From: an uncultured Bacteroidales bacterium
Lineage (GTDB): Bacteria > Bacteroidota > Bacteroidia > Bacteroidales > F082
Length of the DNA stretch: 64,000 nt
Assembly (NCBI GenBank): GCA_947304185.1
Contig: CAMZAM010000001.1
Coordinates: 186,001-250,000 of the forward strand
Direction: 5' to 3'
The notes under the pieces were generated by a model. The model saw only the letters and a list, made by a program, of their open reading frames with translations. It did not search any database and was not told the origin of the DNA. Made by a program: the position numbers and the translations under genes. Positions within the stretch are counted from its first letter, which is position 1, and the number at the start of each line of letters is the position of its first letter. Of this stretch, positions 12,932-20,601 are shown one piece after another.

Positions 12932-14695
12932 ATGAAAAAATTCCTTTCGACTTTAGTATTGATTTGTTGTGCATCTTTTATTTATGCTCAAAACATTGAT
13001 AGTCAACTGCTTGAAGAGATGAGTCGTCGGGCGGATGATGATGAAATTGAGGTCGTTGTGGTGATGAAGGAGCGCTACGACAGAACTCTTCTCAATCAGA
13101 AGGCCGATGCGTTCACTTCACGTGCAGAGCGTAGGGATTTTGTGGCAAAAGAACTGAAAACGTTCGCTGAAAAATCACAGAAAAACATTGTCGATTACCT
13201 TGAAAACACTGCTAAAATCAACAATGTCTCATCATTGCATTTTGCAAATACGTTGTATTTTTCAGCAACGAAGGCTGTGATTATGGAAATAGCCAATCGT
13301 GATGATGTTGAAATCATTGGATTTAACAAGAAACAGAATGTGATACCCGAATGTACAGACGCGATTCATCGCGTCTCCCCAGAATCCCGCGAAATAACCC
13401 CAAATATCACCCAGGTCAATGCCGATCAGGTTTGGGCACAGGGTTATACCGGTGCCGGTGTCATCGTCGCTGTCGTTGATTCAGGTGTCAACTATGAGCA
13501 TGCTGATGTAGCCGACCATTTGTGGGATGGTGGCGACGAGTTTCCTCATCATGGCTATGATATCGTGAACGATGACGACGATCCGATGGACGACAAAGGT
13601 CACGGTACTCATGTCGCTGGAATCGTTTGTGGTGACGGCACTTCGGGCTCGCAAACAGGTGTGGCTCCCGATGCCACATTGATGTGCGTGAAAAACATCG
13701 CCGCAGATGGATTCGGAGGAGCGGTCAACATTGCGGGAGGCATGGAATGGGCCGTTGAACATGGCTGCGATATGATAAGCATGTCGCTGGGAATGGCAGG
13801 TGCATCAGTCACCGACAAGATTGTGTTGCGGCGCACTTGTGTGGCAGTAAATGATGCTGGCATAGTGGCTGCGGTATGCGCCGGCAATGAAGGTCTCGAC
13901 ATTCTTTTGATGGCTTATCCTATTCCCGACAATGTGCGCGTGCCAGCCAGCTGTCCTCCGCCATATCTCGACCCCGACCAGTTTGTAAACCCAGGCGAAC
14001 TGAGCTGCGTGATAGCGGTGGGCGCTGTCGATGGCAACGACGCTGCGGCATCGTTCACCTCGCGAGGTCCTGTGACTTGGCAAGATACCGAGTTTGGTGA
14101 TTATGCTTACGAGCCTGGTATCGGACTGATAAGACCGGATGTCTGCGCACCAGGCGTAGCTATCAAATCACTTGATTATCAGAATATTAACGGTTACACC
14201 AACATGGACGGCACCTCGCAGGCCACTCCTTGCGTGTCGGGCATTGTAGCGCTGATGTTGCAGAAAAACCCCAACCTCATGCCAGCTGATATCTGCAGGA
14301 TTTTGGAGGAGACATCGTTGAAACTCACTCCAAACAAAAGCAACATCACCGGTGTGGGCCGCGTCGATGCCCTCGCCGCCATAAACGCCGTGGAACCATA
14401 CGATGCCGTAGAGGAAAATGAAATCTCAGATAATGGATTTGTGGTGTATCCTAATCCCGCATCTGATTACATAATCATCAATATATCCCTTGTACAGACG
14501 CGATTCATCGCGTCTCATGAGACGACACACTGTGACGTCTCTACAGGCGGATACAGTATCACAAACCTGACGGGACAGACAATAATGACTGGCAGAATTA
14601 CATCAGAAAATCAAAAAATTGATATTTCATCATTGCCAGAAGGAATGTATTTCATCAAAATTGGTAAGGTGACAATGAAATTTTTGAAAAATTAA
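12932..14695 (+). CDS. Subtilisin-like (S8) serine protease with T9SS sorting domain
   Basis: Exported protease expected to cross the outer membrane by type IX secretion. It has a signal peptide (MKKFLSTLVLICCASFIYA), an inhibitor-like propeptide (about 25-135) and an S8 domain with a full triad: Asp-183 in VVDSG, His-224 in GHGTH and Ser-429 in GTSQATP. A type A C-terminal sorting domain starts at about residue 503 (VYPNPASDY), with LPEGMYFIKI near the end. Two copies of a palindromic element lie inside the coding sequence. One, in the propeptide/catalytic linker, is translated CTDAIHRVS. The other, in the sorting domain, is translated VQTRFIASHETTHCDVS. Both keep the frame open. The second lies between beta strands of the sorting domain, so secretion may or may not be affected. 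Confidence 0.92.
   Translation: MKKFLSTLVLICCASFIYAQNIDSQLLEEMSRRADDDEIEVVVVMKERYDRTLLNQKADAFTSRAERRDFVAKELKTFAEKSQKNIVDYLENTAKINNVSSLHFANTLYFSATKAVIMEIANRDDVEIIGFNKKQNVIPECTDAIHRVSPESREITPNITQVNADQVWAQGYTGAGVIVAVVDSGVNYEHADVADHLWDGGDEFPHHGYDIVNDDDDPMDDKGHGTHVAGIVCGDGTSGSQTGVAPDATLMCVKNIAADGFGGAVNIAGGMEWAVEHGCDMISMSLGMAGASVTDKIVLRRTCVAVNDAGIVAAVCAGNEGLDILLMAYPIPDNVRVPASCPPPYLDPDQFVNPGELSCVIAVGAVDGNDAAASFTSRGPVTWQDTEFGDYAYEPGIGLIRPDVCAPGVAIKSLDYQNINGYTNMDGTSQATPCVSGIVALMLQKNPNLMPADICRILEETSLKLTPNKSNITGVGRVDALAAINAVEPYDAVEENEISDNGFVVYPNPASDYIIINISLVQTRFIASHETTHCDVSTGGYSITNLTGQTIMTGRITSENQKIDISSLPEGMYFIKIGKVTMKFLKN
13353..13377. repeat. Palindromic mini-element, copy 3, inside the protease gene
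   Basis: 25 bp with stem AGACGCGAT-TC-ATCGCGTCT, identical base for base to the first 25 bp of the copy at 14492, but read in a different frame. The right-hand CTAC end is missing (TCTCCCC instead). Confidence 0.85.
14491..14545. repeat. Palindromic mini-element, copy 4, inside the sorting domain
   Basis: 55-bp composite: the same 25-bp unit as at 13353, then a second hairpin GAGACG...CGTCTC ending CTACA. Ends are TGTACAGACG and CGTCTCTACA. It adds about 18 residues to the T9SS sorting domain. Confidence 0.85.
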
Positions 14696-14714
14696 ACAAA
14701 AAATAATATCTTTG
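14683..14714 (+). promoter_or_regulatory. Near-consensus promoter of the type III restriction operon
   Basis: -33 TTTG (14683-14686) and -7 TATCTTTG (14707-14714), 20 nt apart, as in the Bacteroidota consensus. The -33 box overlaps the 3' end of the protease gene. Transcription would start near 14718, giving a leader of about 260 nt before mod. Confidence 0.75.
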
Positions 14715-14766
14715 CAAAAAATTCAATAATAAAGAAAGCATAGTAAAACAAAAATATTAAGATAAC

Positions 14767-14970
14767 ATAGCGTTTGCTGCTATTCTGAAATCATTCCAAA
14801 GCTTGGTCGCAAAAGGAATATCTACAGAAGGTAGAGCAAGCCTGCGTAATGCGTGGGCGGCTTATCTGTAGGTATGGGTATGACCAAGCACCCGGAATGT
14901 GGATAAGTTTCGTCCACGTTTCTTTTGTGCTTGGTTGCAAGGTTTTAGGAAATGCAAACGCCCTAAAATC
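14767..14970 (+). ncRNA. Candidate structured leader RNA upstream of the type III mod gene
   Basis: This non-coding stretch can form many nested pairings. The small hairpin is ATAGC/GCTAT (14767-14783). A long composite arm is built from ATTCC/GGAAT (14793-14797 with 14894-14898), GCTTGGTC/GACCAAGC (14801-14808 with 14882-14889), ATATCTACAG/CTGTAGGTAT (14818-14827 with 14866-14875) and AAGCC/GGCTT (14838-14842 with 14859-14863). Further hairpins are AATGTGGA/TCCACGTT (14896-14920, competing with the outer pair), CTTG/CAAG (14930-14941) and TTTTAGG/CCTAAAA (14943-14968). The last one ends ten bases before the mod ATG. No known RNA family was recognised; a cis-acting control of the restriction operon or an independent small RNA are both possible. 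Confidence 0.6.
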
Positions 14971-14977
14971 GAGATAA

Positions 14978-16912
14978 ATGCCCAAAACCCTCATCGAAGA
15001 ATTGCCTCGCATTGCGGCTGATGGCCGGCGTGAGGCCCAACAAGTGCTCGACCGTCTGAGTGGCGGTGTACAAATTGGCCTGCAAACAAACGAATTAGTG
15101 CTTCCTGCTCGCGACACGTCAGGACTATGGCGTGGACAAACAGGTGCCGAAGACCTTTACCAGCCTTGGTATAATCGTCTTGTTTATGGCGATAATATGC
15201 TCGCAATGCAAGCGTTGCTGAAAGGTGACCCAGCCAACGGAACGCCATCGCTTCGTGGTGCCGTCGATTTGATTTACATTGACCCGCCGTTTGATAGCAA
15301 AGCTGATTACCGCACAAAAATAAACCTTCCAGGCACTACAGTTGAGCAGCGTCCAACGGTGATTGAGCAGTTTGGCTATTCCGACCTTTGGCAAAACGGT
15401 ACGGTGAGTTACCTTGAATATATGTATCCTCGTCTTGTACTTATGCGCGAACTTCTTTCCGAACGGGGTAGCATCTATGTGCATATCGATTGGCATGTGG
15501 GAGCGTATATGAAAGTGATTTTGGATGATATATTCGGGAAAGAGAATTTCGTGAATGAAATAATATGGTGTTACTCACAGGGAGCAAAATCTCATAAATC
15601 ATTTGGCAAAAAACATGATACTATTCTATTTTATCGAATGAATGCAGAAAATTGTGTGTTTAATGTGGATGCGATTAAAGTGGCGATGAAATCTGGTAAA
15701 GAATCATTTGGTGGTAGATTGGAAACAGATGAGGATGGCCGAAAATACAGATTAGTCTATGGAACAAAAAATGCGCAAGGTGAAACGAGATATTATAAAT
15801 ACTATTTAGATGAGGGTAAAATCCCAGAAGATTATTGGACAGATATCAATAGTCTTCAATCGGGTGTGACAGAAAGAGTGGGGTACGCCACCCAAAAACC
15901 TGAAGCTCTTTTGGAACGTATAATCAAAGCCTCTTCCAATGAAGGTGATTTGGTTTGTGACTTCTTCGGCGGTAGTGGCACCACTGCGGCTGTGGCTGAA
16001 AAACTTGGTCGTCGTTGGATTACAACAGATATTGGGAAACCTGCAGCCCTCGTCATGCGCAAACGCCTCATCGATCAAGAAGCCAAACCATTCCTTTATC
16101 AAGCTGTGGGCGATTATCAAAAACAGGCATTTGCCACAAGCCATATCAAACGAGTAGGCGATTTGAGTCAGATTGTGCTCGGCCTGTACGGTGCATTGCC
16201 ATTTGCTCCAGACCAGTTGGCAGACCGCAATTTTGGTTATATGAAAGAAGGTCGCACTTTGGTGATGGTGGATAGTCCAAATCGTCTAACAAGTCCGGCA
16301 ACAATTAAGAAGGCTTACGAAGCCAAGGGCAGTCTGCTTGGTGGCGGTTGGAACAAAGTGGTGGTTCTCGGATGGAATTTCTCATACGACATTTCACAAG
16401 CCATTCACGATTATGCCGACAGAGGCGTTGAAGTGCTGGTAATTCCACCAGATTTGATAGACAAGCTTTCAAAGAAAGGTTTCCGCAATCTCATTAGCGC
16501 AGGCGGTATACGTTTCAGCTCTCTGCAATATTTAATGCTCAAACCGTTGCGAATTGAAAAAAGCGACATCAATGGAACGGAACTTTTGAATGTCGAGCTG
16601 GACAATTATGTTTTAATCTCTCCAGATAACTTGCCGTTGGATGATGCAAATAAGAAAAAACTGCAGCAGGTTATGGCTGAAGATCCATTAGCACTAATTG
16701 AATATTGGAGCATTGACCCAGATTACGATGGTGTTACATTCCGCAGTAAATGGCAGGATTATCGTGAAAATACTGAAAATGATAACGATCCGCTGCATTG
16801 CATATATAAAGCTTCGATGGTTGTTCCAATAAAAGCCGAGCGCACAGTGTGTGTGAAATCGGTTGATGTGTTTGGTTTTGAATCAATGGTTGTAGAAAGG
16901 GTGAAACAATGA
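14978..16912 (+). CDS. mod: Type III restriction-modification system methyltransferase (Mod)
   Basis: DNA methyltransferase and target-recognition subunit of a type III system; it methylates adenine (or less likely cytosine N4) and guides the Res nuclease. The order is beta-class: catalytic motif IV DPPF first (residues 102-105, in [12 protein letters not shown]), then the AdoMet motif FGGSGTT (about 330-336). The segment between them, the target-recognition region, is notably AT-rich (about one third G+C over 15541-15840 by hand count, against half or more upstream), which suggests it was exchanged by recombination. A further 300 residues follow motif I. It starts after a structured leader and overlaps res by ATGA. 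Confidence 0.93.
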
Positions 16913-19785
16913 AAGAGATTCCATTAGAATTGGCTGCACATCTAACTACCACAGTAAATGAGGTTTTCGCAACGGGTGAGATGTTTGAGCAGGTGTCGCC
17001 TGTGACGACTGAATTGCTTCGTTTTTGGTTTTGCGAACCTTTTGTGAATGAACGCAATGTCAATTTCCACGAAGGACAGCGTCAAGCGATACTGAATGTT
17101 ATATATCTGCACGAAGTATTGAAAATAAACAACGTCACCGATATTTACAAATCGGTTGTTCCAAGTCTGCTTCCGCTTACCGACCTTTCGATGTTGGCAA
17201 AACCGAAATATTCTTTTCCGAAATATGCAGTCAAGATGGCGACAGGCACAGGAAAGACTTGGGTTATGCATGCATTATTACTTTGGCAGATTTTGAATGC
17301 GCGTCACACTGAAAACATTGATGACGATTGTCGTTACACTCAGCGTTTTCTGATCGTTGCACCAGGTTTGGTGGTTTATGATAGGTTGCAAGATGCATTT
17401 AAAGGTCGTTTGAAAACAGGCGGCAGTACCGAACGTGACCCGATGACTAACGATTTTCGGAAGTTCCAAGATTTGTTTATTCCACCAGCGTATCGCGAAG
17501 AGGTTTTTGGTTTCCTACAAAACAATGTCGTCAGCAAAGAAGATGGCATAGGACGTAAGGTCACTGGCGAAGGGTTGATTGCGTTGACGAACTGGCATCT
17601 TTTTATGAGCGGAAACGACGAAGAGACGGAGGAATCCGATTCAACACAGGCAATCATCAACGATTTGCTTCCGGCTCGTCCGGGTACTGCAGCTGGCAAT
17701 GCGTTGGATACTTTAGACAATGCCTATCTGCGTGGCAACGAACTTGACTATCTCGCATCTTTGCCAGATTTGATGGTCATCAACGATGAGGCACATCATA
17801 TCCATGAAAGCAAAGTGGCAGGTGAGATTGAGGAAGTTGAGTGGCAGAAAGGCTTAGATTTTATCGGCAATAACAAATCCAAGTTTTATCAGATTGACTT
17901 TTCTGCAACACCTTATTCAACTTCAGGAACAGGTAGCAGGGTTAAGAAACACTATTTTCCGCATATTATCGTCGATTTTGACCTTACGACTGCAATGAAA
18001 AAAGGTCTGGTCAAGACTTTGTTGTTGGATAAGCGTCAGGAACTTACCGAGTTGGAACACTTGGATTTCAAAGCTGTCCGTGATGAGCGTAATAGGGTGG
18101 TCGGATTAAGCGAAGGTCAACGGCTGATGCTTCGTGCAGGTTTGACCAAGCTTGCCATGCTTGAGCAAGGTTTTAACAGTTTGGATTCTCACAAATGTCC
18201 TAAGATGATGGTGATTTGCGAAGATACATCTGTGACACCTTTTGTGACTGAGTTTTTGGAAGGCGAGGGGCTTGGAAAAGATGATTATTTAGCAATCGAC
18301 AGCACAAAGCAAGGTGAAGTTAAACCAGATGAATGGCAGCAAATCAAGGAGAAACTGTTCAATATCGACCGTTATGTTCAACCTAAAGTGATTGTTTCGG
18401 TTTTGATGTTGCGTGAAGGATTTGATGTTAACAATATTTGTGTCATTGTTCCATTAAGAGCATCGTCAGCATCAATTTTGTTGGAGCAGACAATCGGTCG
18501 TGGACTGCGTTTAATGTGGCGAGAGCCTGAATATCAGGATGAAAAAGAAGAAAACCGAAAGGCCGTTTTGGTGCGTAAGGAACGTCCGAAGTCTTATCTG
18601 GACATGCTTTCCATTATTGAGCACCCTGCTTTCCAGCAGTTCTACGATGATCTGTTAAGAGAAGGTCTGGCTGGAGTTGATGAAGATGACATTAGTAATG
18701 CCAACGCAACAGGCGACATGATTAAGGTGGGCTTGAAAGAAAATTATCAGGATTATGATATGTTTTGGCCTATTGTTATTCGTGATGCCGAAGAGGAAAT
18801 GGCTGCGATGCAAATTGATATAAATAAACTTGAATCGTTTAATTTGTTCCCTTTGGAGCAATTGCGTAAGTTTTTAGCCGTTGAGGGTGAGACATTTTAT
18901 TCAGAAGCGATTTTGTCTTCAACAACATTTGGAAAGTATGAAGTTAAAGCCGATTTATTTTCGGCAGAATCATATAATGAATATTTACAAAAGATACTTC
19001 GCACTATTACTTTGAGAGTTAATCGAGTGGGAGGCAAGGCTTTGCCGAGTCTTCAAATCAATGAGATGGAAATCGTACGTGTTGTAGATACTTATATTCG
19101 TACAAGATTGTTCGGCAAACCGTTTAATCCTTTCAATGGTAACGATTGGAAAATATTATTGTCGAAAAACGCCATTGTTACACAACATATCATAAAAGTG
19201 ATGAGCGTTGCGATTCATGAGATGCAGGAAAATACATTAAGCAATGATGCTGTTGTTGATAAAATCTGGTTCTCATCGGTTAAAAATTTGAGAATGCGTG
19301 AAAGCTATTCATTAGAATTACAAAAAGTGATTTATGAACGGTTGAATTATCCTTCAAGCAAAGGAAGACTTGAAAAAGAGTTTATGGAATTTCTTGATAA
19401 GGATGCTGATGTGCAGCATTTTATAAAAATCAACGAAAGTCAGCACGATTTTGCCAAGTGTTTCTACATTCGCGAAGACGGTTTGTTGGCATCATATCAT
19501 CCTGATTTTCTGGTTTGTACAGATAATGAAATCTATATCGTTGAGACCAAGGGTGATGATAAAACAAATGATGTCAATGTTAGAAGAAAACAACTTGCTA
19601 CCTTGGAATGGTGCAAGAAAATCAATCAATTGCGCGGTTCTGACAGGATGGATAGAGTTTGGAATTATATCCTTCTTGGAGAAAATGATTTCTACACATG
19701 GTCAGGTAATGGTGCAACATTTACAGATATTGCTAATCTTTCCAAGGTGTCAAAGACAAGCGTTACGGGATTATTGTTTGAATAA
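16909..19785 (+). CDS. res: Type III restriction-modification system helicase-nuclease (Res)
   Basis: Restriction subunit that moves on DNA using ATP and cuts when two unmethylated sites are met. It is a superfamily 2 helicase with Walker A ATGTGKT (111-117), DEAH box (293-296), the motif V/VI region LREGFDVNN ... [10 protein letters not shown] (about 505-530) and a C-terminal PD-(D/E)xK nuclease with YHPDF (about 864) and YIVETKG (about 878-884). At 958 residues it is full length, with no frameshift, so the system looks intact. Its ATG overlaps the mod stop, ensuring coupled synthesis. AT-rich stretches near the 3' end resemble the TRD part of mod. Confidence 0.93.
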
Positions 19786-19967: not shown

Positions 19968-20282
19968 ATGGAGATTGTTTTTGAGAAAGATTATTTGAGG
20001 GAGCTTTACTACGATGGAAAAACAAACGACAAACATCATCGCTATCAGCCGCAAATAGTGAAGAAATATGTTAATGTGGTTAATATCCTTGATGCAGTAA
20101 CCAAAGTTGAAGACCTTTTCCGATATAATTCCTTGCATTATGAGAAATTGCATGGTGACAAGGAAGGAATGGAATCTGTACGCGTGAACGACCAGTATCG
20201 AATTGAGTTTAAATCGACGGAAAACGTTGAAAAAAGTATAACAATCTGCAATATCACTGAATTGTCGAACCATTATAAATAA
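19968..20282 (+). CDS. higB: HigB-like type II toxin (RelE/ParE superfamily)
   Basis: Toxin of a toxin-antitoxin pair; HigB toxins are ribosome-dependent mRNA nucleases. At 104 residues it is in the family range. The C-terminal half carries the core strand pattern LHYEKLHGDKEGMESVRVNDQYRIEF, close to the HigB pattern LxGxxxGxxSIRVNxQWRI. The toxin gene comes before the antitoxin gene, the reversed order typical of higBA. The antitoxin follows after 7 nt. It has its own promoter, separate from the restriction operon. Confidence 0.88.
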   Translation: MEIVFEKDYLRELYYDGKTNDKHHRYQPQIVKKYVNVVNILDAVTKVEDLFRYNSLHYEKLHGDKEGMESVRVNDQYRIEFKSTENVEKSITICNITELSNHYK

Positions 20283-20289
20283 GATAATC

Positions 20290-20601
20290 ATGGGTAATTT
20301 AGGTTACGGGGCATATCCCACACATCCTGGAGAAGTGTTGAAAGACGAAATAGAATCTCGTGGCATCAGTCAGAGGCAACTGGCTGACAGCATGGGACTT
20401 ACATATTCGGTGGTCAACGAAATTCTGAACGGTCACCGTTCTCTGACAGCCAAAACTGCCCTTATGTTTGAGGCCGCTCTCGATGTTCCTGCAGATTCAT
20501 TGATGTACTTGCAAATGAAATACAACATGCAGACTACAAGAAATGATAAATCTTTCCTTAGTGTTTTGAAAGGTGTAAGGAAAGTCGCAGCAGTATTATA
20601 G
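20290..20601 (+). CDS. higA: HigA-like antitoxin with XRE-type helix-turn-helix
   Basis: Antitoxin that would bind HigB and repress the operon. At 103 residues it is a single XRE HTH domain: PTHPGEVLKDEIESRGISQ, then the recognition helix region SVVNEILNGHRSLTAKTALMFEAAL. This is the VapI/HigA signature. It sits directly after higB and forms, with the type III restriction genes, a small defence cassette between housekeeping genes. Confidence 0.92.
   Translation: MGNLGYGAYPTHPGEVLKDEIESRGISQRQLADSMGLTYSVVNEILNGHRSLTAKTALMFEAALDVPADSLMYLQMKYNMQTTRNDKSFLSVLKGVRKVAAVL

Follow-up and report, generated by a model that had tools for sequence, protein, structure and literature searches.

A type III restriction-modification operon in the 64,000-nucleotide stretch of Bacteroidales DNA analysed here (the window) is preceded by a long leader, and this raises the question of what the leader does. 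The first-pass annotation had offered three readings: an RNA switch, an independent small RNA controlling Mod/Res expression, or a phage-inhibited sensor. Our analysis points to a cis-acting leader RNA that probably controls read-through into mod-res by transcription attenuation, using a terminator and an antiterminator. It appears to represent a large uncatalogued regulatory RNA family in a main animal-gut phylum. It provides a specific and testable proposal for how Bacteroidota keep incoming restriction-modification operons in check, and an example of a regulatory RNA that evolves separately from the gene under its control.

The mod-res operon and its leader

Transcription of the operon is expected to start near 14720, as predicted from the position of a promoter whose previously described elements (TTTG, 20 nt, TATCTTTG) are indeed present. 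This promoter overlaps the 3' end of a subtilase-like gene, and the leader of ~257 nt lies between the stop of that gene (14695) and the mod ATG (14978). Similar promoters accompany related elements: TANNTTTG occurs within 150 nt upstream in 33 of 49 (3.2 expected from shuffling), and the complete TTTG-N18..22-TANNTTTG in 12 of the 49 (0.0 expected). The core of the element, as delimited by the two covariance models described below (R1 and R2), ends 55 nt upstream of mod.

14683..14714, + strand: promoter of the Bacteroidota type (TTTG 14683-14686, 20 nt, TATCTTTG 14707-14714)
14769..14922, + strand: RNA element core (R1 148 bits; R2 133.7 bits, rough E-value 1.6e-25; folding z -5.2)
14978..16912, + strand: mod, the gene behind the element, encoding a type III DNA methyltransferase (PF01555, E 1.4e-44; PADLOC MTase_III, E 8e-80)
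16909..19785, + strand: res, the second operon gene, encoding the type III restriction subunit (PF04851 ResIII, E 8.9e-13)

The operon is directly followed by a HigB-like toxin gene (PF05015) and a probable helix-turn-helix antitoxin gene (window 19968-20601).

So much ordered pairing in the leader had been considered unlikely to be fortuitous, and comparison with dinucleotide shuffles agrees: folding z is -5.9 for 14718-14977 and -5.2 for 14785-14930, with 0 of 200 shuffles as stable in either case. The nested pairs ATTCC/GGAAT, GCTTGGTC/GACCAAGC and ATATCTACAG/CTGTAGGTAT are all found in the window. The innermost pair, given earlier as AAGCC/GGCTT, is better drawn as GAGC/GCTT plus GCCTGCGT/GCGTGGGC, and the last hairpin before the mod ATG is present but ends nine bases from it rather than ten. 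This pre-mod hairpin is conserved in close relatives, with modest statistical support. The parts of the leader referred to below are as follows.

14769..14777, + strand: 5' motif AGCGTTTGC, almost invariant in the restriction-gene subfamily
14792..14797, + strand: P1 5' strand CATTCC (partner GGAATG 14894-14899)
14801..14808, + strand: P2 5' strand GCTTGGTC (partner GACCAAGC 14882-14889)
14818..14827, + strand: P3 5' strand ATATCTACAG (partner CTGTAGGTAT 14866-14875)
14851..14866, + strand: X, made up of the apical hairpin's 3' strand and CTTATC, pairing with W (about 14833-14848) or with Y
14876..14893, + strand: pseudoknot hairpin GGGT 14876-14879 / ACCC 14890-14893, flanking the P2 3' strand
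14902..14918, + strand: Y, GATAAGTTTCGTCCACG, terminator helix partner of X (X:Y duplex -23.8 kcal/mol)
14919..14926, + strand: U-tract TTTCTTTT, directly after Y
14927..14936, + strand: C, GTGCTTGGTT, which can pair instead with the P2 3' strand (GACCAAGCAC)
14943..14968, + strand: pre-mod hairpin TTTTAGG 14943-14949 / CCTAAAA 14962-14968, with GCAAACGC (14954-14961) in its loop

A family of structured RNAs in Bacteroidota

A first DNA search turned up a copy with 89% identity in a congeneric genome, in front of a different gene, and searching with the 5' motif AGCGTTTGC brought in about two dozen relatives from Bacteroidales MAGs, many of herbivore-gut origin. A covariance model built from 17 relatives carrying this motif (R1) detected the element in 13 of 395 Bacteroidota genomes, with distant members across the class and five copies in one genome. 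With a second model to which P1 was added (R2), 39 of the 395 sampled genomes were positive at E 0.001 or better, the E-values of both models being rough by the tool's own statement. Within the window's genus, R2 matched 97 of 99 genomes, with up to 21 copies per genome. Four copies with E below 0.001 were found in the window's own genome: C1 (the window leader), C26:9481, C2:51644 and C5:12099.

The first-pass annotation had proposed a search of Rfam and a check for covariation in homologues. No match to Rfam 15 was obtained at the gathering score for the window or 45 related loci, and relaxing the search of 14600-15100 to E up to 10 gave only eukaryal/archaeal snoRNA models outside the element, which is thus uncatalogued in Rfam 15. 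Searches of the open-access literature, whose coverage is partial so that an earlier mention elsewhere is possible, found no description of it. Other structured Bacteroidota RNAs are known, including Flavo-1, Bacteroidales-1 and 6S-flavo (Weinberg et al. 2010, PMC2864571), and Flavo-1 matches in 5' regions without clear function have been noted in one study (PMC9723704). Every RNA of the 2010 set carries an Rfam accession, unlike the element, and at the gathering score neither the window nor the 45 loci matched any of them. Carriage by phages or plasmids was considered and rejected: viral contigs gave no match to two patterns, and plasmids and phages gave none by blastn.

Compensatory changes support three coaxial helices (P1-P2-P3), the apical hairpin and a small pseudoknot. 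The order of the core is P1a-AAA-P2a-(AAUUU)-P3a-apical hairpin-P3b-GGY-P2b-RCC-P1b, with conserved internal loops AAA/RCC and AAUUU/GGY. Covariation scores were 0.656 for 31 sequences (0.221 shuffled), 0.789 for 52 (0.241 shuffled) and 0.791 for 69 (0.228 shuffled), compared with about 0.1 for slid structures used as a control. All 7 pairs of P1 and all 8 pairs of P2 have changed on both sides, and P2 is 99% paired, in alignments whose fitting by covariance models raises the share of paired cells. We therefore added a swap test, independent of helix alignment, which compares the pairing of each strand with its own partner and with the corresponding strand of another sequence; the segments themselves were placed with the model. 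Own partners paired better in 34 sequences under 70% identical, with z -14.3 for P1, -18.0 for P2, -12.4 for P3, -9.1 for W:X and -12.7 for X:Y, and 0 of 5000 permutations were as good for any of the five. The 18 sequences outside model building gave -10.2, -9.2, -10.2, -8.7 and -8.0, respectively. The GGY and RCC linkers beside P2b also covary (GGU with ACC, GGC with GCC), implying a three- to four-base-pair pseudoknot; in 52 relatives it is 93.5% paired, compared with 86.3 +/- 0.9 when shuffled, and its last pair is UA in 34 and CG in 12. A further closing helix, P0 (AGCG with ACGC before the U-tract), was rejected (z -0.5 and -1.4). Thus, all helices of the core covary in homologues, with controls, and judged from these sequence comparisons a real RNA family is close to certain.

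The DUF805 and DUF805b RNAs (RF03081, RF02914) resemble the element in occurring in Bacteroidota, directly before start codons and in many copies per genome, but they are 35-68 nt long and differ in sequence and fold. The window has no DUF805b match at the gathering score, and its genome has three at E 0.001 or better. In the relatives' loci that were searched, DUF805 and DUF805b matches adjoin the element and never lie on it, and in two cases (L026:1196-1433 and L068:1501-1768) the element and a DUF805b or DUF805 immediately downstream of it stand in tandem before one gene. The idea that DUF805b forms the 3' part of the same RNA was rejected as a rule, 30 DUF805b loci yielding one R1 match at E 0.45. 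DUF805/DUF805b is a separate element, sometimes in tandem. Upstream of one DUF805b match in the window's genome (G000:C2:85857-85891, L087), the models missed a stretch with the same P1-P2-P3 layout and a T-run, so that the family is probably larger than counted.

Alternative pairings and proposed attenuation

An attenuator is expected to lie between promoter and start codon and to form mutually exclusive helices that share a strand. The element does lie between the promoter and the start codon of the gene behind it. X, together with the CUUAUC that follows, can pair with its own 5' strand W or with downstream Y (GATAAG...GTCCACG); W:X and X:Y both covary and exclude each other. In the window X:Y is a 17-bp duplex, and a terminator-like site is detected at the Y region. 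A U-tract (at least 5 T in 7) directly follows Y in 51 of 52 relatives, compared with 1 and 7 at control positions. As read from the sequences, these alternative pairings and the U-tract are the architecture of transcription attenuation. A leader-peptide attenuator would carry a conserved short ORF ahead of its terminator; in the members inspected, no start codon was seen before the conserved core.

In the window's subgroup, a second hairpin ends at the same U-tract. This local hairpin, GGAATGTGGAT/GTCCACGTTTC (14894-14922, -13.4 kcal/mol), uses the GTCCACG of Y, paired with GTGGAT, and competes with P1. That the two exclude each other had been proposed earlier and holds in simulated nascent folding, in which P1-P2-P3 is present by 14900 and the local terminator replaces P1 once 14925 is out. 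Computed energies for the window slightly favor P1+P2 (-55.9) over X:Y (-52.1), and the free minimum (-59.3) combines P2-P3 with the local terminator hairpin. The relevant terminator in the window's subgroup may therefore be either X:Y or the local hairpin. The alternative pairing of C with the P2 3' strand gave a swap z of -4.6 in 34 distant sequences, the signal coming mainly from the close subgroup. A third alternative helix, Y:Z, in which Y pairs with post-U-tract sequence, was suggested by eye in divergent members and rejected (z -0.8).

These features suggest the following sequence of events. The emerging RNA would fold into P1-P2-P3, keeping X with W. If the core is held by a signal, be it metabolite, protein or small RNA, RNA polymerase would pass. 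If it is not, X:Y would form at the U-tract and transcription would stop; in the window's subgroup, the local hairpin using the P1 3' strand would also form there. Translation may be controlled in addition by the hairpin that immediately precedes the ATG. Of the earlier readings, the cis-acting two-state leader is the one that covariation favors, and nothing in this analysis shows phage sensing.

Riboswitches, T-boxes and protein-dependent attenuators are terminator/antiterminator leader RNAs. The element is like them in being a 5' leader with exclusive helices that share one strand and a U-tract after one of them, with conserved internal loops around variable helices, a pseudoknot in the core and a position directly before genes. 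It is unlike those known in that it has no Rfam 15 match, precedes very diverse genes and is swapped between unrelated ones. Such leaders are reviewed, for example, in PMC10907184 and PMC7583486.

The leader could instead act mainly on translation, the 5' AGCGTTTGC pairing with GCAAACGC in the pre-ATG hairpin to hide or open the start, with the U-tract incidental. GCGTTTGC, within the 5' motif, is indeed complementary to GCAAACGC at 14954-14961, and GTTTGCTATTTGT/ACAAATAGCGAAC takes the same position just before the ATG in L146. The statistical support for this long-range pairing is modest: z averages -1.18 (standard error 0.22), and 30% of the values fall under -2. However, it is weak and limited to part of the family, whereas X:Y covaries strongly and is almost always followed by the U-tract, and we consider a mainly translational role unlikely. 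A retron-like reading, with AGCGTTTGC and GCAAACGC as closing repeats, was rejected since no reverse transcriptase gene follows in the window.

The 5' promoter and the 3' U-tract would delimit a unit of about 200 nt, and several copies occur per genome, as might be expected if a small RNA were released by processing or termination to act in trans and its host gene simply happened to lie behind it. However, nearly all copies in the set examined have a same-strand gene immediately behind them, within a narrow range of distances (median gap 72.5 nt), which makes an independent small RNA less likely, and helix sequences vary freely among the copies of one genome, unlike those of a small RNA with a fixed target. 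This explanation thus seems improbable. Chance folding or a hidden coding region with no regulatory role can be practically dismissed, given the controlled covariation in all helices and the lack of any + strand ORF of 60 aa covering the stretch. We therefore retain transcription attenuation in cis as the probable function.

Downstream genes and exchange of leaders

Control of the type III operon alone, as first supposed, is not borne out; the same family precedes many other restriction-modification genes, as well as genes for SusC/TonB receptors and secreted proteins. Copies with AGCGTTTGC mostly precede restriction-modification genes of several types, and other copies precede TonB/SusC receptors and secreted proteins. 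The 85 downstream proteins were divided by hand into two groups according to the 5' motif of the leader and origin, with L064, L162 and L163, whose leaders have AGCGTTTGC before secreted-protein genes, placed in the second. By hand count, 25 of 35 first genes in the first group (including that of L026, 405 nt away) have restriction-modification or related defence domains: N6_N4_Mtase (9), N6_Mtase (7), HSDR_N_2 (6), Eco57I (4), ResIII (3) and one each of EcoRI_methylase, Mrr_cat_2 and GmrSD. In the window's genome, the copy at C2:51644 also precedes a DNA methyltransferase gene. Proteins of the second group most often have TonB plug domains (11 of 50), ahead of an assortment of secreted, lipoprotein and repeat proteins. 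No function common to all downstream genes points to a ligand. In L121, L126, L130, L138 and L141, from the Bacteroidia family f173, extra leader sequence separates the element from a SusC-like TonB receptor gene about 230-320 nt away.

Near-identical cores are found before non-homologous genes: L028/L049 (99%), L032/L043 (97%), L031/L051 (96%), L160/L173 (92%) and the window/L025 (89%). Conversely, three orthologous mod genes of the genus share 77-85% protein identity and have leaders only 53-62% identical, against a family background of 60%. The mod leader of G022 and the leader of the C2 methyltransferase gene of the window's genome share 85% identity. Since leaders are 89-99% alike before non-homologous genes and at background level before orthologous mod genes, we infer that they are exchanged between genes, in a comparison of organisms that are mostly MAGs. 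Judged by eye, the identity of L028 and L049 runs from about 24 nt before AGCG to the last pre-ATG hairpin, and therefore the exchanged unit would be the RNA and not the promoter. Insertion, gene conversion and recombination are candidate routes.

These observations suggest, tentatively, that the leader is a mobile regulatory module, which may travel between unrelated genes as a unit the size of the RNA, leaving the promoter behind, and place restriction or surface genes that have been newly acquired under a ready-made switch controlled by the host. In the window's genus the leader often stands before restriction-modification genes. Transferable regulatory regions have been discussed as 'regulatory switching' (PMC9944727), in which, as here, an upstream non-coding region is replaced independently of the gene behind it. 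Unlike that case, where alleles are swapped before one gene, here the same folded RNA stands before non-homologous genes.

Several individual loci show further irregularities. One copy (L027:6364-6400) is truncated, its 5' 35 nt running into the start codon of a DUF1016-like gene, and a full copy lies 2.6 kb downstream. Contigs end inside the element in L056, L057 and L061, and in L048 the contig end is 39 nt away from it; confusion of near-identical copies during assembly would be expected to produce such breaks. In L111, L184 and L197, repeated AAGGACT units are found between the U-tract and the gene.
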